From: a virus
Virus record (IMG/VR): IMGVR_UViG_3300010430_000555
Span: 1 to 20,287 of that record
Strand: one strand, 5' to 3'
Length of the DNA: 20,287 nt
A program made the translations under genes and the position numbers. Under the pieces are notes generated by a model, which saw only the letters and a program-made list of their open reading frames with translations, searched no databases and had not been told where the DNA came from. This document shows positions 3,743 through 20,032 of this stretch, one piece after another; the first letter of the stretch is position 1, and the number at the start of each line of letters is the position of its first letter.

Positions 3743-5299
3743 ATGTCAGACATGATAGTAAAAAACCTTAGTTTTGGAAACGAAGCTAAGCAAGAAGTAT
3801 TTAAAGGTATAGAAAAACTCACAAAAGCTGTTAGCTCTACACTTGGAGCTAGCGGCAAATGTGTTTTGCTAGAAGATTCCTTTGGAAACCCAACCATAAC
3901 AAAAGATGGTGTAACAGTTGCAGATAGTGTAATACTTAAAAATCCTATAGAAAACTTAGGTTGTAGTTTATTAAAACAAGCCGCTAGAAAAACAGTAAAA
4001 GAAGCTGGCGATGGAACTACTACCGCAACGGTATTAGCTCATGCTATTTTAATTGAAGCTTATAAGCTTTCAAGCACTAGTAACTCTAGAGAAATAAAAG
4101 AAGGTATAAATAAAGCTACCGATAAAGTAGTTAAATACCTAGAATCAATATCATTATCGGTTAAAAATGATATGATTGATCAAATAGCAACTATATCTAC
4201 AAATAACGATAATAAGCTAGGTAAAATTATAGCCGACGCATTTAGGTCTGTAGATAATACAGGTGTTGTAATGATGGAGCAGTCAGAAAGCGGTAAAACA
4301 GAACTTGAAGTAATAGAAGGTTCTCAATATTTTAAAGGATTAACTAGTCCTCATTTTGTGACTAATAAAGCTAAGAATACAGCTGAACTAAGTAATCCAC
4401 TTGTTTTACTTATAGAGTCTCCGGTGGAAAGCGTTAGACAAATACAAAGTGTTTTAGAATACGTAATAAAAAATAATAAACCATTATTGGTTATAGGTGA
4501 TTTAAGTCCAGAAGTTTTATCAGCTTTAGCAATGAATAAAACTAAAGGTAATATAAAAGTAAATGTAATTGAAGCACCTACATTAGGTGTTAACAGAAAA
4601 GAAATGTTTGATGACATAGCTCTTTTAACAGGTGCTACATTAATAAATGAAGATTTAGGTGATGACATGGATATGATTCAAATAGAACATTTAGGATCAT
4701 GCTTAAAGTCTGTTACTGATAAAACAGAAACTATAATTCAACTTAAAGAAATAAATAAAGAGTCTTTAACTATTATAAAAGACATAAAAAAAGAATTGTT
4801 AGTATGTAAAATACCTGACAAAACTATAAGACTTGAAAAGCGATTAGCTATGTTAGCTGCTAAAATTGCAGTTGTTAAAGTTGGTGCTAATTCAGATATT
4901 GAATTAAAAGAAAAAATGGATAGAGTTGAAGATGCTATTTGTGCTACTAAAGCCGCGATTAAAGAAGGTATAGTGCCAGGTGGTGGAATCGCTTTATTAA
5001 ATGCTAGTTCTAATATAAAAGCTAAGTCAGATGGGGAGACTATATTGCTAGAAGCAATTAGAGCACCATTTAAGACCATATTAGAAAATGCTGGTATAAT
5101 AGATATTGATATGCCTAAAACAAAAGGAAGAGGTCTAGATGTTATTACTGGTAAAACAGTTAACATGATTGATTATGGCATAATTGATCCATTGTTAGTT
5201 ACTAAAAGCGCTTTAAAAAATGCAGCATCAGTAGCTACTACAATACTTTCAACTGATTGTGTAATAAATAACATAAGGATAGATGAAAGCAATAGGTAG
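3743..5299 (+). CDS. groEL: Phage-encoded GroEL-type chaperonin (Hsp60)
   Basis: This 518-residue group I chaperonin aligns by eye with bacterial GroEL along its whole length. The equatorial ATP-binding elements are intact: TKDGVTVA (Asp55, equivalent to E. coli Asp52), AGDGTTTATVLA (Asp90, equivalent to Asp87), VEDAICATKAA (Asp397, equivalent to Asp398), VPGGGIALL (412-419) and IIDPLLVTKSALKNAASVA near the C-terminus. The intermediate and apical domains are present. In the apical substrate/GroES-binding groove the usual Y-L-S-P-Y-F is L-T-S-P-H-F (200-205), so substrate preference may differ. The protein ends just after the equatorial domain and lacks the flexible GGM-rich tail. The GroES gene overlaps its 3' end by 17 bases. 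Complete ATP-site residues suggest an active ATPase ring that folds phage structural proteins. Very confident of the family; the substrate is unknown. Confidence 0.97.
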   Translation: MSDMIVKNLSFGNEAKQEVFKGIEKLTKAVSSTLGASGKCVLLEDSFGNPTITKDGVTVADSVILKNPIENLGCSLLKQAARKTVKEAGDGTTTATVLAHAILIEAYKLSSTSNSREIKEGINKATDKVVKYLESISLSVKNDMIDQIATISTNNDNKLGKIIADAFRSVDNTGVVMMEQSESGKTELEVIEGSQYFKGLTSPHFVTNKAKNTAELSNPLVLLIESPVESVRQIQSVLEYVIKNNKPLLVIGDLSPEVLSALAMNKTKGNIKVNVIEAPTLGVNRKEMFDDIALLTGATLINEDLGDDMDMIQIEHLGSCLKSVTDKTETIIQLKEINKESLTIIKDIKKELLVCKIPDKTIRLEKRLAMLAAKIAVVKVGANSDIELKEKMDRVEDAICATKAAIKEGIVPGGGIALLNASSNIKAKSDGETILLEAIRAPFKTILENAGIIDIDMPKTKGRGLDVITGKTVNMIDYGIIDPLLVTKSALKNAASVATTILSTDCVINNIRIDESNR

Positions 5300-5543
5300 A
5301 AATTTAATAATACAAAAAGAAAAACAAGTTACCACTGAAACAAAAGGTGGTTTAATTCTTGCAGAGTCACATAGAGAAGATATTAGATACACAAAAGCCA
5401 GTGTTGTATCTATTGGAGATGAGGTTGAAGGTTTAAAACAATCAGACACTATATTTTTTGATAGACATGCAGGTCATAAAATAGAAATAGGTGATTTAAC
5501 CTATCACGTCATTAAATTACAAGATGTAGTTGTTGTTTTATGA
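5283..5543 (+). CDS. groES: Phage-encoded GroES-type co-chaperonin
   Basis: An 86-residue protein with the GroES (Cpn10) pattern: an N-terminal strand (GRNLIIQKEK), a mobile loop region (about residues 16-34) with the hydrophobic GEL-binding tripeptide as LIL within KGGLILAES, a central strand ASVVSIGDEV, and a C-terminal strand HVIKLQDVVVVL. It is shorter than the roughly 97-residue bacterial protein, mainly where the roof hairpin and adjacent loops would be. It starts inside the 3' end of the GroEL gene, the reverse of the usual bacterial groES-groEL order, which argues for translational coupling and a dedicated pair. It should cap the neighbouring phage GroEL; whether it also works with host GroEL cannot be judged from sequence. 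Confidence 0.92.
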   Translation: MKAIGRNLIIQKEKQVTTETKGGLILAESHREDIRYTKASVVSIGDEVEGLKQSDTIFFDRHAGHKIEIGDLTYHVIKLQDVVVVL

Positions 5544-5988: not shown

Positions 5989-7068
5989 ATGAGTTTTAAA
6001 TCAAGTATGCCATACCAACTAAATCCGCAATTAAAAGCGCAGGTTGATGCAAAAAAAGCTAGAGATGCAGCAGCATTTGGGCCAGGTGGTATAAACGATG
6101 GAACACCATGGTGGCAAAGAGATTCTTATTTAAAAGCTACTGGGCAAGAGGTTGCAGAAAAACCAATAGAAAAAATAGAATGGGCTAATGGTTTAGGAAA
6201 TAATATTGATGGAAGATATGAAAACTTTCAATTACCAGACGAATTAAGATACAGTGAAAATGTTGTTAGTGATAGAGATAGAACTGGCATGGCTTATCAA
6301 AACGCTGCTAGAGAAAGAGATATAATTCAAAGCCAACAAGATTTACTAACATATGGACCAGCTGGAAAACCAAAAATAACAAATAACGATATGAACAACA
6401 TACAAGATCCAAATATTATAGATCCAGCTAACATAGGTGAAAGCGGTCAATTAAATTCTTTTAAACCGATAGCGCAACAAGTTGCAGGTTCTCTTTATGG
6501 TAATAATTTAGAAAAAACAGCCGCATTATCTCCTGTAGCTATGAAAATAGATCCTAAAACAAGTTACAGTGCTCTAGATGCTTATAAAAGCGCTATGAAC
6601 ATAGGTAATATTGTTGCTTCAGGTGCTAAAACTAATTATGTAAAAGACACTAATAGAGTAAATAAAGCTTTAGGTCTTCCAAGTCTTCCAAATCTTAATT
6701 CTATGGGTGGAGGAAAAGGAGGAAGTTACTCAAATCCTAAAAACACATTAAGCGTAACACCACCATCAACAACACCGTCTTCAACACCACCACCAAATAC
6801 TCAATATGATTTTCAAAGTAAAATGGGTATTTCAGAAGGTTTTGACGGTTCCAATTTAAAAAATAAAGAACATAGAAACTCTTTTTTAGGTACTTACAAA
6901 AGAAACAAACCTTCTTTAGAGGCTAGAATTAAAGATGCTACAGACGCTGGTAAAACAAGAAAAGTAAATAGATTAAATAAAAAACTTAAAAACTTTGAAG
7001 ATTATCAAGCTGGAGGAAAAGGTTTTGTAGGAAGGGCACTACAGGGTATAGGAAACATTTTTAAATAA
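5989..7068 (+). CDS. Hypothetical phage protein with Pro/Thr/Ser linker, possibly virion-associated
   Basis: A 359-residue protein that starts two bases after the preceding stop. It is hydrophilic with no transmembrane segment or signal peptide. The N-terminal two-thirds is Asn/Gln/Gly-rich with few predicted regular elements. A low-complexity linker of Pro, Thr and Ser spans about residues 257-273 (nt 6757-6807). It is followed by a basic, helical C-terminus (KTRKVNRLNKKLKNFEDY) and an amphipathic tail, GFVGRALQGIGNIFK. This architecture of disordered body, linker and amphipathic end is compatible with an internal or ejected virion protein, but no family is recognised and no function is claimed. 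Confidence 0.7.
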   Translation: MSFKSSMPYQLNPQLKAQVDAKKARDAAAFGPGGINDGTPWWQRDSYLKATGQEVAEKPIEKIEWANGLGNNIDGRYENFQLPDELRYSENVVSDRDRTGMAYQNAARERDIIQSQQDLLTYGPAGKPKITNNDMNNIQDPNIIDPANIGESGQLNSFKPIAQQVAGSLYGNNLEKTAALSPVAMKIDPKTSYSALDAYKSAMNIGNIVASGAKTNYVKDTNRVNKALGLPSLPNLNSMGGGKGGSYSNPKNTLSVTPPSTTPSSTPPPNTQYDFQSKMGISEGFDGSNLKNKEHRNSFLGTYKRNKPSLEARIKDATDAGKTRKVNRLNKKLKNFEDYQAGGKGFVGRALQGIGNIFK

Positions 7069-7330: not shown

Positions 7331-7492
7331 ATGTTTATAGGAAAGATTCAACATTCAGCAAGAATAAGTCCATTAACTAAAAAAGCAACTTGCTGGAAAG
7401 GTTATAAAGCTGAAGGTAAAAAGAAATCACCTAGTGGTAAAAAAACTAAGGGAGGAAAAATTAAAATGGTTAACAACTGTGTTAAAGCTTAA
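7331..7492 (+). CDS. Very small basic protein (53 residues), CWKGY-type motif
   Basis: A short ORF beginning ATGTTTATA, one base after the preceding stop, and ending GTTAAAGCTTAA. The product starts MFIGKIQHSARISPLTKKAT, continues with CWKGYKAEGKKKSPSG, and ends in a Gly/Lys run and MVNNCVKA. It is highly basic, with two Cys. The Cys-Trp-Lys-Gly-Tyr ... Gly-Gly ... Asn-Cys-Val pattern resembles, from memory, a short C-terminal module seen in many marine phage proteins (CWKGY...NCV). It packs neatly between genes on both sides (next start at 7498). Possible roles are DNA binding or a virion cargo tag; both are inference. Confidence 0.65.
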   Translation: MFIGKIQHSARISPLTKKATCWKGYKAEGKKKSPSGKKTKGGKIKMVNNCVKA

Positions 7493-7497
7493 TAAGC

Positions 7498-7794
7498 ATG
7501 TATATACAGTCAGATAATCCATTTAACTCTGCTTTGCCTAAAAAAGGCAAAATAAGAAAAACTACTAAGGGTAAAGGAAGAAACTTTAGAACTACTGATG
7601 AAGGTGCTGGCATGACTAGCAAAGGCGTTAAAGAATATAGAAAAAAGAATCCAGGTAGTAAATTAAAAACAGCAGTTACAGGTGATGTAAAACCAGGTAG
7701 CAAAGCTGCTAAAAGAAGAAAATCATTTTGTGCTAGATCAAAAGGCTGGACCGGAGAAAGAGGTAAAGCCGCTAGAAAACGCTGGAAATGCTAA
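7498..7794 (+). CDS. Small basic protein, DUF6321-like
   Basis: A 98-residue, strongly basic protein, about a third Lys plus Arg, with two Cys at its end. The C-terminal two-thirds reads AGMTSKGVKEYRKKNPGSKL, then a TAVTGDVKPGSKAAKRRKSF segment, then CARSKGW and a terminal KRWKC. I recognise this arrangement as the DUF6321-type module common in marine phages such as cyanophages; the name is from memory and should be checked. The conserved SFCAR and terminal W-x-C suggest a small compact or metal/disulfide-stabilised fold. It starts five bases after the 53-residue gene, so these two small basic proteins are probably made together. The function is not known; nucleic-acid binding is plausible from charge. 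Confidence 0.75.
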   Translation: MYIQSDNPFNSALPKKGKIRKTTKGKGRNFRTTDEGAGMTSKGVKEYRKKNPGSKLKTAVTGDVKPGSKAAKRRKSFCARSKGWTGERGKAARKRWKC

Positions 7795-7831
7795 AATAAA
7801 AACCAAACCAAAACAATAAAAAAAAACAATC

Positions 7832-8449
7832 ATGGGTTACACAGGAAACAACCATTACGCGCAAAAATATGACGCGTCAAAAGCTTACGACAAAGACTAT
7901 ACAGCTTCGGCTAGATTACATTATTTAGAAAATAGTGAACACGACAAACACGACCACCACCACCCCGCTAAAATGTGTGGGCCAGGAAATCACGCGCCTA
8001 AAATGCATGGGTCAATGAAAGGTGATCAATCAGATCAACATATAGATTATAAAAACTACAAAGGAACAGACAAAGGTTACCACGGTAGTACAGGTTCTTC
8101 ACATGGAGATCAATCAAATATTTTTCATGACTATGATAAGCATCCAGCTAAAATGTATGGGGAACCAGTAACAAAAAACTTAGGTTTTATTAAAGCAGAA
8201 ACTTTAAAAAAAGATCCTTCAGCTACTACAATGCAGGTTGGTGACGAAACAATGCCTATTAAAATGGCTGGCGACATGGGTCATAATGTTTTAGCAGAAG
8301 ATATGAGATCTAACCAAATTGCTGGAGCATCTGGCGATATGGGATATGCAGGCGACTTATCTGGTGCAGCACCTATGATGAAAGCTTTAGGTAAACCAGC
8401 GTTAATGTTAAAAAAAGGTATCGCATCTATGTGTGGTATGAAAAAATAA
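7832..8449 (+). CDS. Histidine-rich hypothetical protein with PAKM repeats
   Basis: A 205-residue protein. The first half is polar and His-rich: H37, H40, H42-44, H54 and H59 cluster in a short span. Short recurring units appear: HHPAKMCG (43-50), APKMHG (55-60), HPAKMYG (104-110) and MPIKMAG (141-147). A second repeat pairs GDQSDQHIDY with GDQSNIFHDY. The C-terminal half is Gly/Ala/Met-rich with basic ends. No membrane helix or enzyme motif is evident. The His clusters could bind transition metals. Early codons favour C-ending forms (TAC, GAC, AAC) compared with flanking genes. No family name is known to me; a virion or virion-associated protein is inferred from context and from PAKM-type motifs. 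Confidence 0.7.
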   Translation: MGYTGNNHYAQKYDASKAYDKDYTASARLHYLENSEHDKHDHHHPAKMCGPGNHAPKMHGSMKGDQSDQHIDYKNYKGTDKGYHGSTGSSHGDQSNIFHDYDKHPAKMYGEPVTKNLGFIKAETLKKDPSATTMQVGDETMPIKMAGDMGHNVLAEDMRSNQIAGASGDMGYAGDLSGAAPMMKALGKPALMLKKGIASMCGMKK

Positions 8450-8450
8450 A

Positions 8451-8465
8451 ACAGTAGAGAACTGT
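8451..8465 (+). other. Small hairpin after the His-rich gene
   Basis: ACAGT and ACTGT form a 5-bp perfect stem with loop AGAGA directly after the stop at 8449. There is no T-run. A second weak hairpin (GGCT/AGCC, 8497-8508) follows in the same 74-base gap, which is otherwise A-rich. These could form the 5' leader of the highly expressed gene at 8524 but may be chance. Confidence 0.2.
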
Positions 8466-8523
8466 ATAAAACTCAAAATAATAATAAACCAAACCAGGCT
8501 TAACAGCCAAAAAACAAAACAAA

Positions 8524-8967
8524 ATGTCAAAATTTTTAAAATTCAACATTGTTGACTCAGGAGCACTTATAACACAAGGACCTGAATTAGTCAACGTAGA
8601 TCAAATCGAAAGCGTATCATACGTGGCAGGAACAGGAGTATTATCAATCATATTGAAAGGCGCTATAGCTTTACAAAAAACTTACGCATTATCTGGAGGC
8701 GGCGATGGTACTGTACCAAACGTAAATTACGGTTACCGAGTAGTATCTATTACTGTAAGAACAACTAAAGACGGTAGCGCTGGTGTTCCAACAATTACAA
8801 ACGGAGCTAAATCACCACAGAAAGCTGTATACGCAGCAATGACAGCTAATCCAGGAGGTGTACAATCAACAGTTCAGTTAGGACTTGATGAGGCAGCAAC
8901 TCCAGTTCAAATGTATTTCTCTGACTTTGCAGTTTCAACTGAAGAAGAACTCGTAACTTACGCATAA
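8524..8967 (+). CDS. Probable abundant structural (virion) protein, beta-rich
   Basis: A 147-residue protein rich in Val, Thr, Ala and Gly with alternating hydrophobic residues, typical of a small beta-sandwich. It has no Cys, signal peptide or membrane helix. Segments such as VDQIESVSYVAGTGVLSIIL and YRVVSITVRTTKDG look like successive strands. Codon choice is unlike most of the window: Tyr is TAC in six of seven cases and Asn is AAC in four of six, whereas nearby genes overwhelmingly use TAT and AAT. Such bias usually marks very highly expressed phage genes. It has its own longer leader (74 bases) and is followed by a strong intrinsic terminator, so it may be its own transcription unit. A head decoration, tail tube or other major virion protein would fit; which one is not determined. 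Confidence 0.7.
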   Translation: MSKFLKFNIVDSGALITQGPELVNVDQIESVSYVAGTGVLSIILKGAIALQKTYALSGGGDGTVPNVNYGYRVVSITVRTTKDGSAGVPTITNGAKSPQKAVYAAMTANPGGVQSTVQLGLDEAATPVQMYFSDFAVSTEEELVTYA

Positions 8968-8989
8968 TACTACTAACTAACCTAAATAT

Positions 8990-9023
8990 GCTCGCGGCTT
9001 AATTGTCGCGGGCTTATTTTAAT
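8990..9023 (+). terminator. Rho-independent terminator
   Basis: GCTCGCG (8990-8996) pairs with CGCGGGC (9007-9013), a 7-bp GC-rich stem with one T/G wobble around a 10-base loop, followed directly by TTATTTTAAT. In a genome of about one-third GC this is a striking structure. It sits 22 bases after the stop of the gene at 8524-8967 and before the next start at 9035. Confidence 0.85.
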
Positions 9024-9034
9024 AAAATCAATAT

Positions 9035-9502
9035 ATGAGTTCACCTATAAAACACTGTTGGAGCTCTATGATGCACAATCCTGAATGGGGTAAAATGCGT
9101 GGTAGAAGTGGTTCTGGAACCGGTAATGATGCTGCTTTAAAAGCTGCTAAGGCAAAAAGAACGTCTCCATTAAAAATGGGTTTTAAGATGAAAGGATCTC
9201 CATATAATGAAGAATCAGGCAATACACCTATATTACACGTTGATATGGAGGAAGGCACATTAGGTATGGCTACTAACAATGGTAGCATACTTATAAATAA
9301 AGACATTAAAGATCCAAAGCAACAACAAGAAGTTGTGGACCATGAGATGGTACACATTAAGCAAATAAAAGACGGTAGATTAAGCTACGATAAAGATAAT
9401 GTTTATTGGGAAGGAAAAAAGTTTTCAAGAGACGATATGAATGAAGGAGCTGAAAATTTACCATGGGAAAAAGAGGCTTATGATAAAACTGAAAACGCTT
9501 AA
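9035..9502 (+). CDS. Small zincin-like metallopeptidase (HExxH), possibly virion-associated
   Basis: A 155-residue protein with a zinc-peptidase signature: VVDHEMVHIKQ, with His103, Glu104 and His107. A downstream Glu in LPWEKEAYDK (Glu147 is the best candidate) could be the third ligand, as in HExxH...E zincins. Before it lies a compact beta region with SILINKD. The N-terminus is different in character: basic and Met/Ser-rich, with the short motifs SPIK (3-6), SPLKM (44-48) and GSPY. It looks like a disordered targeting or sorting segment. It follows the terminator and lies three bases before the next gene, which carries another metallopeptidase-like motif. The substrate is unknown; cleaving head proteins, the host envelope or peptidoglycan stems are options. 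The motif is clear, activity is inferred. Confidence 0.75.
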   Translation: MSSPIKHCWSSMMHNPEWGKMRGRSGSGTGNDAALKAAKAKRTSPLKMGFKMKGSPYNEESGNTPILHVDMEEGTLGMATNNGSILINKDIKDPKQQQEVVDHEMVHIKQIKDGRLSYDKDNVYWEGKKFSRDDMNEGAENLPWEKEAYDKTENA

Positions 9503-9504
9503 TT

Positions 9505-11547
9505 ATGGGATTAAAAAAGAATTTTTTTAAAGGATTACAAGGCGGTGTAAATCATAGTCCTTTAAAATCACATGAAGGTGGTCCACCTCACAAAGACTTT
9601 AAAGGTAAATTAGCGCATAAGCTTGCTAATAAAGAACCTGTAGTTGACGAAAGGCTATTAAACCAAAATGTTTCAGATAATCTAGCTGTAAATAATTTTA
9701 GAATAAATAATAATATATCTTCAAAAAAATTAAAAAATGACGCGGCTCAAATTAAAGAAATTGCAGATTTAAAAAATTTTAAAGAAAGACCAATGCTTAG
9801 TCAAGGTCCTGTAACAGAACGAGAAAAAGAACAAGCAGCTAAAAATCAAGAAAGAGGTGAAAAAATACATAATGCCTCATTAAGTTTATTAGAAAGACCA
9901 CTAGCTTACATGTCAGATCCATCAGCACTTTTAGGTGATATGGGTATTAATTCTTTTTTAGGTTTTGATACTGGAAATACAACACAATTAGCTAGAGAAA
10001 TAGAGACAATGAGAACAGATCCAAATTTATCGCTTTCTGACAAATTAAAAGCTAAAACTCAAATGGGTCTTGGTATGGTTCCTTCTGCAACTGTTAATGT
10101 TGGGCTAGGTATGATAGGAGCTGGAGGTGTGGGAGCTGGACTTAAAGGTACTACTAGATATGCTGGAAATGTTTTAAACAATACTCTTAACCCTTTAGCT
10201 GGATTTGGTAAACCCACTATAAATGCAGTGAGTAATGCATTAGGTAAAAATGCTGATGACGTTGGATTAGATTCAATGCAAAAAGCAATGAATGATTATT
10301 ATGGAACTGTAAATAAAAAATATAATACCACTAATGTTTCACCGTCATCAACTAACTTATCACCAGAAGATGTTGGCATGAACGAATCAATACTGCCAAA
10401 TAGATCTACAAGCAGATTTGGCAGACCAAATAATGATACTGATTTAGGTAATCAATTAAAACCTCTTGTTGATGAGTTGTCTTCATATGCACCAACTAAT
10501 CAAACTATAAGAAATCAAACAGTTGAAAACATGACATCTACTCAAGGTCAGGAAAGATTAGTTAACAATATTTTAGAAGAAATAAACGCTGGAAGCCTGA
10601 ATCACCGAGGCGTTAAAGTTCCAAGAGCAAAATTAGGTGTTAGAAATTTTTTAACTGAAAAGCTAGGTTTTGAAGGTACAACTGAAATAGCAAAAATGAC
10701 AGATGCTCAAAAACTAGAGTATGCTAAAAAAATTGCAAAAGAAAAAGTAAAAGAAATAAAAGAGAGTATTAGTGTTAACGAAAAACTATTATCTTCTTAT
10801 AATCCTGATGGAAGCTACGACCCGAGTAAAGCCATAAAAGCATTATATGGTGATAATGTTGGATCTGGAAATCGTCTTGGAATAAGTTCGTTTGACAACG
10901 CATCATATTCTGGTGAAGTTAGTATGAGTCCAAATAAAGACGTAATGTGGGGATTAGGAACAAATTCTAATAACCCTATGACTTCTGCTCATGAACTAGT
11001 GGGGCATGGTGGTCAAGAGTTTAAAGGATTAGGTTTTAACCAATCGTCATTAATGTCTAAAAATTCTGGACTAGATCAACGTCTTCTAAACTTAGATCAG
11101 GTTACGCCTATTGAAGGTTCAGGAGCTAAAGTAAATCAAAATTATTTTAATACTGGTTCTGCTAGTGAGTTCGGCGAATACAACCCACATACAGGTAGAT
11201 ACTCGGTTAGAGAAAGCGAGCCAAGAGCTTTTTTATCTGAATTTAGACAAGGTATGAAAGAATATGATTTTTTGAAAAATGCTGATGGAACATGGGAAAC
11301 TGCTACGCCACAAAAAATTAAAGATTTTTCAGATTACCTAAAAGCAAACCCAAGTGGAACTATGAAAGGAAGCGATTTTTCTCCTAACATTAGGATTCAT
11401 GATATTATAGATTTTGATAATCCAAAAAATCTTGATGAAATTTCAAAAGAATTAAACAAAATGATTGGCCAAAATAATCCAGGTGATGCAGATGGTAAGA
11501 ATAAATTTAATATGTTGAAATCTAATTCAATGGAAGCTAATGCGTAA
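9505..11547 (+). CDS. Large probable internal/ejected virion protein with HExxGH metallopeptidase motif
   Basis: A 680-residue protein. The N-terminus is basic and disordered, with HSPLK at 17-21 like the neighbour gene's SPLKM. Residues about 187-215 form a Gly/Ala/Val/Met-rich hydrophobic stretch (MGLGMVPSATVNVGLGMIGA and onward) that could interact with membrane. Long charged helical parts follow. Near residue 493 lies SAHELVGHGGQEF: His496, Glu497 and His501 give the variant H-E-x-x-G-H, not standard HExxH. A later RESEPRAF (569-576) has a candidate Glu ligand. The HExxGH form is known from dipeptidyl peptidase III (M49), and I recall similar HExxGHxG motifs in zincin domains of phage polyvalent proteins; the latter fits better. 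The family assignment is tentative. Size, low complexity and position suggest a cargo protein delivered into the cell. Confidence 0.7.
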   Translation: MGLKKNFFKGLQGGVNHSPLKSHEGGPPHKDFKGKLAHKLANKEPVVDERLLNQNVSDNLAVNNFRINNNISSKKLKNDAAQIKEIADLKNFKERPMLSQGPVTEREKEQAAKNQERGEKIHNASLSLLERPLAYMSDPSALLGDMGINSFLGFDTGNTTQLAREIETMRTDPNLSLSDKLKAKTQMGLGMVPSATVNVGLGMIGAGGVGAGLKGTTRYAGNVLNNTLNPLAGFGKPTINAVSNALGKNADDVGLDSMQKAMNDYYGTVNKKYNTTNVSPSSTNLSPEDVGMNESILPNRSTSRFGRPNNDTDLGNQLKPLVDELSSYAPTNQTIRNQTVENMTSTQGQERLVNNILEEINAGSLNHRGVKVPRAKLGVRNFLTEKLGFEGTTEIAKMTDAQKLEYAKKIAKEKVKEIKESISVNEKLLSSYNPDGSYDPSKAIKALYGDNVGSGNRLGISSFDNASYSGEVSMSPNKDVMWGLGTNSNNPMTSAHELVGHGGQEFKGLGFNQSSLMSKNSGLDQRLLNLDQVTPIEGSGAKVNQNYFNTGSASEFGEYNPHTGRYSVRESEPRAFLSEFRQGMKEYDFLKNADGTWETATPQKIKDFSDYLKANPSGTMKGSDFSPNIRIHDIIDFDNPKNLDEISKELNKMIGQNNPGDADGKNKFNMLKSNSMEANA

Positions 11548-13126: not shown

Positions 13127-13343
13127 TATTAGAAAAATAAGTATTGGTTCTGATTACAAGAATGACGCTATGCATTATGCTGTTGGACAGCAAGTTTATG
13201 GTGGTCACGAAATATCTCACATTTTATTAAACGATTCAGACAATTCTTATAATATACACATAAAGAAAAACAACGAAATATTGCCGTGGAAGAAATTTAA
13301 TTCTAACATGGCAATATCAGTTGAGTATGATCTAGAATATTAA
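13116..13343 (+). CDS. Hypothetical 75-residue protein
   Basis: I place the start at 13116 (MANNIRKISIGSDY), which overlaps the preceding gene by 11 bases. An upstream in-frame ATG at 13059 would add 19 residues read out of frame through the coiled-coil gene and is unlikely. The product is a compact alpha/beta-looking protein with YAVGQQVYGGHEISHILL and an acidic, strand-like end (MAISVEYDLEY). No motif I can name is present. It overlaps the next gene by one base (TAATG), so translation is probably coupled. Found in the run leading to the terminase genes, it may be an assembly accessory protein. Confidence 0.65.
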   Translation: MANNIRKISIGSDYKNDAMHYAVGQQVYGGHEISHILLNDSDNSYNIHIKKNNEILPWKKFNSNMAISVEYDLEY

Positions 13344-13948
13344 TGAAAAGCTTATATGACTTTATTGTAGAACCATTAGGTGATAAATACAATAATGAAA
13401 TAAAAATAAACAATAAAAGCTTAGTATTAAATAGCAAAATAGAAAGTTTTAAATTTGTAAATAGGCACGCTATAGTTAAAGCTATACCTTTGGCTTTTAA
13501 AACAAATATAAAAATTGGAGATATATTAATTATACATCAAAATGTTTTTAGAACTTTTTATGACTCAAGAGGTAAAAAGAAAAAAAGTAGATCTTTTTTT
13601 AAAGAAAACCTATATTTTTGTGCTTTAGATCAAATTTATTTGTATAAAAATAAAGATGGCTGGAACTCTATAAACAATAGATGTTTTATAAAACCTATAG
13701 TTAATAAAGACACTTTAGTTAATGATAAAGAAAAAAGTCTTATTGGCATATTAAAGTATGGAAATAACGTCTTAGAACAGCTAGATATAAACATAGGGGA
13801 CCTAGTTGGTTACACGCCTGGTGGTGAATGGGAATTCTTAATAGATAAAGAAAGACTATATTGTATGAAATCAAATGATATTGTAATTAAATATGAACAT
13901 AAAGGAAACGAAGAAGAATATAATCCTAGCTGGGCAAGTAGCAGTTGA
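13343..13948 (+). CDS. Tandem GroES-like (Cpn10-fold) protein, proposed
   Basis: A 201-residue protein that by eye carries two GroES-like halves. Half one runs DFIVEPLG, then LVLNS, AIVKAIPLA, IKIGDILIIHQN (56-67) and YFCALDQIYLYK (91-102). Half two has GILKYGNN, INIGDLVGYTPG (149-160) and YCMKSNDIVIKY (173-184). This mirrors GroES, where a strand is followed by a V-G-D-I-V-I-F turn and a final strand ending in S-D-I-L. The two IGD turns and the two final-strand motifs align with each other. The first half has a basic insertion (RGKKKKSRSFF, 76-86). A clear GroEL-binding mobile loop is not obvious in half two. It sits just before the terminase genes and could adapt the chaperonin for capsid or portal folding, or be a structural barrel protein. 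The fold is inference without structure search. Confidence 0.55.
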   Translation: MKSLYDFIVEPLGDKYNNEIKINNKSLVLNSKIESFKFVNRHAIVKAIPLAFKTNIKIGDILIIHQNVFRTFYDSRGKKKKSRSFFKENLYFCALDQIYLYKNKDGWNSINNRCFIKPIVNKDTLVNDKEKSLIGILKYGNNVLEQLDINIGDLVGYTPGGEWEFLIDKERLYCMKSNDIVIKYEHKGNEEEYNPSWASSS

Positions 13949-18829: not shown

Positions 18830-20032
18830 ATGTCAAAAGAAACAGAAGTAAAAGAACCTGTTAAGCAGGAAGGTGACTTTAAAGTTAAAAAGAAAGTACC
18901 TAAAAAACTAATTGTACCAGAAGAAACTATAAAAATGGATCTTGCTGCAATTAAAAAAGAAGAACCTATTAAAGTAGATTTAACACAAAAAAACAAAGAA
19001 GATGCCATTCAAAAGCAAAGCTCAGAGAAAAGCGTGTTACGCGAAGAGGGATCCAAGGTGGAACTGCAAGATGTGGGACAAGGAGACAAAGGGTCCGCTG
19101 AAAATGTTATTAAAGAAATACCAAGATCCAAAGAAGAAATAAAAAAAGTAAAAACAGAGGTAAAAGAAGCTATTAGAGATCAAGAAGTGCTAGGTAAAAA
19201 ACTACCTGAAAACATTGAAAAGCTAGTTTCCTTCATGCAAGAAGTGCCTGGTTCAACTATTGAAGATTACGTTAGATTAAACGCTGATTATTCAAATGTT
19301 GATAATAACACTTTACTTAGAGAATATTATAAAAATACACGTCCACATTTAGAGTATGATGAAGTTAATTTTCTTTTAGAAGATAATTTTAAATATGACG
19401 AACAAGTGGACGAAGAACGCGAGATTAGAAAAAAGAAACTTGCGTATAAAGAAGAAGTTGGAAAAGCTAAAACTTTTTTAAATGGTCTTAAAGATAAATA
19501 TTATGATGAAATCAAGTTGAAATCATCTTCTACTCCAGACCAACAAAAAGCTGTAGATTTTTTTAACCGATACAATGAAGATGAAAAAGTGAGACTTAAA
19601 CAACGTGAAGAGTTTGAGCGCATAACTAAAGATACTTTTAATAAAGAATTCGAAGGTTTCGATTTTAATTTAGGAGAAAAAAGCTTTAGATATGGCGTTA
19701 AAAACCCTAACGAAGTAGTTGAAAATCAATTAGACTTAACAAATTTTGTTACGAAGTTCTTAGCAGATGACGGTAGTTTAAAAGATCCAAAAGGTTATCA
19801 CAAAGCCATGTATGCTGCTAGAAATGCAGACACTATAGCTCAACACTTTTATGAACAAGGCAAAGCAGACGCTGTTAAAGACGTTGTGGCTAAGTCTAAA
19901 AATATTACTACAGAAACAAGAAAAGAAGGTGGTAATAATAGTGGAAGTGTTTTTGTTAATGGTATGAAAATTAAAGCAATAAGTGGTGCTGATTCTTCAA
20001 AACTAAAAATTAAAACAAAAAAATTTAACTAA
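18830..20032 (+). CDS. Scaffold-like / capsid assembly protein
   Basis: A 400-residue, extremely charged, Lys/Glu-rich, mostly helical protein lying between portal and the probable capsid gene, the usual place for a scaffolding protein. The first 110 residues are low-complexity and probably disordered (VKEPVKQEGDFKVKKKVPKK, then EEPIKVDLTQKNKEDAIQKQ). The central part is helix-rich with long Glu/Lys tracts. The end (NSGSVFVNGMKIKAISGADS) is shorter and more hydrophobic and may bind the capsid protein, as scaffold C-termini often do. No protease motif is seen, so it is not obviously a head protease. Bases 19021-19100 show a local GC spike. The start follows an A/T-only leader. Function is inferred from composition and order. 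Confidence 0.65.
   Translation: MSKETEVKEPVKQEGDFKVKKKVPKKLIVPEETIKMDLAAIKKEEPIKVDLTQKNKEDAIQKQSSEKSVLREEGSKVELQDVGQGDKGSAENVIKEIPRSKEEIKKVKTEVKEAIRDQEVLGKKLPENIEKLVSFMQEVPGSTIEDYVRLNADYSNVDNNTLLREYYKNTRPHLEYDEVNFLLEDNFKYDEQVDEEREIRKKKLAYKEEVGKAKTFLNGLKDKYYDEIKLKSSSTPDQQKAVDFFNRYNEDEKVRLKQREEFERITKDTFNKEFEGFDFNLGEKSFRYGVKNPNEVVENQLDLTNFVTKFLADDGSLKDPKGYHKAMYAARNADTIAQHFYEQGKADAVKDVVAKSKNITTETRKEGGNNSGSVFVNGMKIKAISGADSSKLKIKTKKFN

Follow-up and report, generated by a model that had tools for sequence, protein, structure and literature searches.

Gene order and motif copies in the window

The window analyzed here is the whole of a phage record of 20,287 bases. Its 5′ part carries a tail fiber gene, g3372, GroEL, GroES, g5540, a run of small proteins from g5989 to g9505, and g11622. 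Its 3′ part carries a holin, small proteins, a GroES-like protein, terminase, portal, scaffold, and the start of the major capsid protein; the fiber, scaffold, and capsid labels are based on position and weak matches. GroEL and GroES lie at 3743-5543, and the second, GroES-like protein lies at 13343-13948, before the terminase. In a study of phages other than those bearing the motif described below, lysine methylation of Cellulophaga phage proteins was reported and methylated phi38:1 GroEL was detected in free virions (PMC13288928).

We use “slot” for the variable genes in the order GroEL-GroES-g5540-[slot]-holin-TerL-portal. The initial annotation had described short SPxK- and PAKM-like motifs recurring in disordered parts of otherwise dissimilar proteins of this region, and every motif that it named is present at its gene in the window sequence. 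The features are as follows.

5989-7068, plus strand: g5989, 359 aa, same slot; a weak carrier with SPVAMK (SPVK or SPLAKK in relatives)
7331-7492, plus strand: g7331, 53 aa, with SPLTK at residues 13-17 in an N-terminal leader
7367-7381, plus strand: SPLTK of g7331
7498-7794, plus strand: g7498, 98 aa, basic, Pfam DUF6321 (PF19846, E 3.9e-11)
7832-8449, plus strand: g7832, 205 aa, with repeated PAKM, APKM, PAKM, and PIKM
7964-7975, 7994-8005, 8144-8155, and 8255-8266, plus strand: these four copies in g7832, in that order
9035-9175, plus strand: N-terminal extension of g9035, 47 residues, clade specific, with SPIK and most of SPLKM
9041-9052 and 9164-9178, plus strand: SPIK and SPLKM of g9035
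9176-9502, plus strand: conserved, zincin-like core of g9035, with HEMVH ... LPWEKEAY
9505-9588, plus strand: N-terminal leader of g9505 (MGLKKNFFKGLQGGVNHSPLKSHEGGPP)
9556-9567, plus strand: SPLK of g9505
9589-11547, plus strand: variable body of g9505, with HELVGHGGQ (H496) and EPRAF

Within-protein shuffles of the window proteins gave 0.18 expected copies of SP[LI]K against three seen (p 0.0015) and 0.16 expected copies of P[AILVMF]KM against four seen (p 0.0005). For the looser pattern P[ALIMFV]K by itself, the same shuffles showed no significant excess (9 versus 5.7). As the window patterns were chosen post hoc, the relatives are the real test.

Enrichment in close and distant relatives

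g9035 is carried by 22 IMG/VR loci, and the slot proteins of these loci retain the motif. In the window plus four relatives, with redundancy removed and the permuted record G001 left out, proteins between g5540 and g12875 hold 27 copies of the motif family versus 4.76 ± 2.2 in shuffles, and none of 500 shuffles reached 27. Outside the slot, the same proteomes hold 4 copies versus 12.2 in shuffles. With the slot enriched and the remaining proteome depleted, composition does not account for the motif, which is restricted to the slot. It is absent from about half of the slot proteins, several small ones among them. The relatives also have carriers without a counterpart in the window (MPSPIKNHH.., MASSPIKKIS.., SPVKKKKQ, ESPLHKNE, SPLQKKGPCWK, and VPVKMEGD).

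We then assembled a distant set of 82 loci, 58 through a search with the C-terminal core of g9035 and 25 through a DNA pattern, one overlapping. The DNA pattern, encoding PAKMYGGK, was scanned over all of IMG/VR independently of phage homology, and at all 25 loci that it found the match falls in this slot, in phages of the same type. A second motif-only scan of IMG/VR, with GHSPMKM, placed 8 of 10 matches in this slot; a third, with KSPLKKSP, gave one match, which was unrelated. In the nonredundant proteins of the 82 loci, SP[LAMFVIY][KN] occurs 115 times versus 13.0 ± 3.6 expected; the loci are related, so that these counts are not fully independent events despite the removal of redundancy. 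Control patterns (PS, TP, AP, GP, DP, or NP in place of SP, the reversed motif, SG, and SP[hyd] followed by D/E or S/T) gave 11 to 41 copies at the same loci. Enrichment over composition-matched expectation, the absence of which would have refuted the initial annotation, is seen both in close relatives (27 versus 4.8) and at the distant loci (115 versus 13.0). The motif observation is confirmed and is more extensive than first described.

The residues after SP show a preference. At SP +2, L, A, M, and F are favored 2.7-, 2.4-, 1.9-, and 1.6-fold, while Lys is depleted to 0.2× and Arg to 0.5×. K is favored 2.8-fold at SP +3, and M and K are favored 3.9- and 2.6-fold at SP +4. PS, used as a comparison, showed no such pattern. 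Across the 115 copies there are 84 different 12-base words, which vary among synonymous codons in the usual way and so point to selection on the protein; conservation of the motif at the DNA level is ruled out by this codon variation.

The window terminase and portal match those of the Flavobacterium elemo phages, the Cellulophaga phi38:1 and phi19:3 groups, and the metagenomic phage MW202828. The regions examined of elemo, phi38:1, phi19:3, and MW202828 hold no comparable motif set. Genome bins with the g9035 core are mostly Bacteroidota, with some other phyla, binning being no proof of host; the motif-bearing clade is probably one of marine phages of Bacteroidota. Searches of GenBank phages with g7832, a synthetic SPAKMYG repeat, and the motif-rich protein L096:2507-3889 found no true relative, and the top match to the SPAKMYG repeat, MW202478, proved to be an HTH protein. 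The literature yielded nothing relevant on this or similar short motifs in phages; a four-letter text search is weak, so that the novelty of the motif stands on thin evidence.

Shared leaders on unrelated bodies

The motif falls within the first 40 aa of 49 of the 292 nonredundant slot proteins, versus 4.5 expected. We compared proteins whose bodies have no detectable homology and found that N-terminal 30-mers score at least 40 in 87 pairs, compared to 1 pair for internal and 1 for C-terminal segments; some of these pairs may be orthologues diverged past detection, in which case the N terminus is still their conserved part. Recurrent leaders are MAFKMK..SPL, MAYTQ.NPISRK.SPLN, M.KPIT.RVK.SPLK, and MGLKKNFFKGLQGGVNHSPLKMH. 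Some proteins carry four to six copies, in several cases 21 residues apart. Taken together, the motif is a protein-level feature, specific to one clade and one slot, biased toward the N terminus, and common to nonhomologous bodies.

In g7331, the leader is followed by a Cys/Lys-rich CWKGY..NCV module, and relatives have SPLQKK, SPLLKA, or SPITKK at the position of SPLTK. The g7498 leader, MYIQSDNPFNSALPKKGK, looks like a degenerate form of the SPLKK and SPLHK leaders of its relatives. The DUF6321 domain of g7498 is up to about 75% identical to versions in Pelagibacter and Synechococcus phages, which indicates that this basic module crosses host phyla.

A 29-member alignment of g9035 has the core pattern MAFK..PPY..NTPI...HExVHxDQ...LPWEKEAY, in which H103, E104, H107, E145, and E147 are invariant. 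The 47-residue extension with its two motif copies belongs to the window's clade and is missing from distant members of the alignment. All 29 members match PHROG 16532, and 3 of 29 match the metallo-protease PHROG 87. AlphaFold2 modeled the core with a pLDDT of about 75 to 89, while residues 1-31 and 40-55 fell below 50; for g9035, this supports the earlier placement of the motifs in disordered parts. The top structural matches of g9035 were metallopeptidases, all weak: IrrE/PprI (Z 6.3; Foldseek E 0.2), a DNA-protein-crosslink repair protease (5.4), CapP (4.5), and minigluzincins (about 4.5). On these matches, the core is likely, though not established, to be zincin-like. The description of the carriers as otherwise dissimilar also stands: they belong to different families, and most lack any Pfam or PHROG match.

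In the g9505 slot, about 25 to 28 leader residues are kept across orthologues whose bodies do not align. For example, the bodies of loci L008 and L022, and those of L012 and L017, show no alignment beyond the leader. Nearly all of these bodies contain HExxH or HExxxH. In the window body, H496, E497, and H501 and the EP.AF..E element, residues of zincin-like type, are invariant among five relatives; AlphaFold2 modeled this C-terminal part with low confidence (mean pLDDT of 44). Over 9505-11547, and in relatives L003 to L023, whole bodies have been swapped between close relatives with the leader retained. From these sequence comparisons, the g9505 slot may be a hotspot of effector exchange.

Scaffold and capsid proteins

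SP[hyd][KN] is no more frequent in the scaffolds than expected by chance (1 versus 0.24). P[ILVA]K[MV] occurs 5 times versus 0.47, an excess that the shuffles overstate since the scaffolds are homologous. Across the clade, the scaffold (18830-20032) has at its N terminus the element KQEGDFK, which is conserved, and the repeat [PT][IV]K[VM][DN][LI]. This repeat overlaps the tag in P[IV]K[VM] only, which makes it a lead and not evidence; mimicry of the scaffold by the tag was an appealing idea, but the scaffolds do not hold the full motif above chance. The portion of the major capsid protein within the window has no motif. Another reading frame inside the scaffold gene (19002-19142, plus strand), MPFKSKAQRKACYAKRDPRWNCKMWDKETKGPLKMLLKKYQDPKKK, resembles small basic phage proteins and contains PLKM. 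Among 21 sources, only the window and the near-identical L011 contain it, and on this evidence it is not a conserved overlapping gene.

Comparison with known systems

The leader of T4 internal proteins is removed by the prohead protease on maturation. The passages on these proteins in PMC3012670 describe them as highly diverse, having in common only the capsid targeting sequence (CTS), which places diverse anti-host passengers in the precursor scaffolding core. The marine motif resembles the CTS as it is described there, in that one short conserved sequence stands on highly diverse phage proteins, and motif leaders are likewise common to otherwise unrelated proteins (87 versus 1 versus 1 pairs). 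The sequence and the phage group are different, and CTS function is experimental, whereas that of the marine tag is inferred. The marine motif also occurs internally and in tandem, which does not appear in the CTS passages of PMC3012670. By analogy, we favor a marine tag that would work as the CTS does, with one conserved leader on diverse passengers.

SPKK is a DNA minor-groove motif of eukaryotic histones, with Ser-Pro followed by lysine in disordered tails. The marine motif shares Ser-Pro, lysine, and a location in disordered segments, but unlike SPKK it has a hydrophobic residue at +2, where Lys is depleted. Among polyvalent proteins, many of which are probably packaged, no domain is more common than the zincin-like metallopeptidase (PMC5512222). 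The marine set resembles polyvalent proteins such as P1 DdrB and the N4 virion RNA polymerase, likely packaged themselves, in its probable HExxH zincin-like domains and highly variable domain set (PMC5512222). Polyvalent proteins are large and multidomain; in contrast, the marine set has a common short leader, with bodies mostly small or of unknown fold. In crAss001, a podovirus of Bacteroidota, as the phages here probably are, gp45 and gp46 are cargo proteins in capsid and tail, and gp45 binds the portal (PMC10172136, in its account of these proteins). There, by contrast, a folded domain together with a helical segment keeps gp45 in place, and that account describes no common short tag (PMC10172136).

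A proposed docking tag for virion cargo

Our tentative reading, which we hold to be just short of an even chance, is that accessory proteins are sorted into the virion through the motif, which would act as their docking tag. SP[L/A/M/F/V/I]-(x)-[K/N], together with the shorter version P[A/L/I]KM, would be a short linear docking motif, found either in a leader that is disordered or as tandem copies within disordered proteins, and marking the fast-evolving accessory proteins of one marine phage clade. It would bind one component of the assembling virion, e.g., the scaffold core, portal, or major capsid protein. Tagged small basic proteins and zincin-like metalloproteases would thereby be loaded into the head, and the cargo may be ejected with the DNA. 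A binding motif is in keeping with copies that stand on unrelated bodies, whether in disordered leaders or in tandem; we infer both the binding of a partner and the virion location from sequence. Upstream of the head genes, the slot codes for basic proteins as well as candidate proteases. Of the three functions suggested in the initial annotation, cargo sorting fits best, with a leader on interchangeable bodies in one slot, and a processing site is possible but fits poorly with tandem copies; for the third, a host-modification site, the lysine methylation reported in Cellulophaga phages other than the motif-bearing ones (PMC13288928) may be a parallel.

All that the sequences offer in favor of a binding motif holds just as well for docking outside the virion, in which the motif would bind a phage or host protein in the infected cell, e.g., the phage chaperonin or a host target, and would organize an accessory or anti-host complex instead of loading cargo. 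The slot follows directly after GroEL-GroES-g5540 in the loci reaching that far. However, MW202828 and elemo have phage GroEL and GroES without the motif, and the slot also adjoins the genes for holin, terminase, and portal, a sign of late assembly; we consider such docking unlikely. Improbable in our view is trimming of the leaders during head maturation by a virion-assembly protease, possibly zincin-like g9035 itself. Throughout the clade, the slot includes a gene for a zincin-like protein, the leaders are N-terminal and that of g9035 is predicted to be disordered, and metallopeptidases of polyvalent proteins have been proposed to process packaged proteins (PMC5512222). Yet proteins with four to six copies would be cut to pieces, and this tandem arrangement makes a cleavage site less likely; moreover, the two-motif extension of g9035 occurs in one clade only, and the motif is missing from the capsid portion examined and at chance level in the scaffold.

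We give little credence to a relic of leader and repeat duplication in a variable locus with biased composition and no current function. The loci share ancestry, tandem repeats make up some of the copies, and the g9505-slot leader is inherited by descent, but the core residues are kept while the surrounding protein diverges beyond alignment, synonymous codons vary, and the remaining proteome is depleted in the motif. We give very little to a role in condensing packaged DNA, in which the motif and nearby Lys-rich modules would bind DNA as eukaryotic SPKK repeats do. Some of the carriers are strongly basic (+21 to +27 per 100 aa), and basic DUF6321 and DUF5872 modules co-occur. Several carriers, namely, g7832 and the g9505 bodies, are near neutral, however, and the depletion of Lys at SP +2 in favor of hydrophobic residues disfavors an SPKK-type motif. 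The minor-groove motif requires a basic residue right after SP, and we rejected it on the Lys (0.2×) and Arg (0.5×) values there.

If the docking tag does load cargo, unrelated hypothetical proteins of marine phages become predicted virion cargo and probable injected effectors, and a leader-reporter fusion would be a handle on how podovirus heads outside T4 select internal proteins. It is possible, at somewhat below even probability, that the tag amounts to a modular loading code, one motif allowing marine Bacteroidota phages to swap diverse accessory proteins, with injected zincin-like proteases as candidates, into one head-loading route. Tagged proteins of obscure function could then be recognized as virion cargo from their sequence alone. 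If docking instead takes place elsewhere in the cell, the motif still marks a common binding partner of the whole accessory gene set.

Among phages that bear the motif, we found none with virion proteomics. In phi40:1, a cultured relative, gp80 lies two genes downstream of the g5540 homologue and is a small, basic virion protein by MS/MS. The motif is missing from this protein, whose homologues in the motif clade are encoded elsewhere than in the slot, so that gp80 gives only indirect support for virion proteins near this position.
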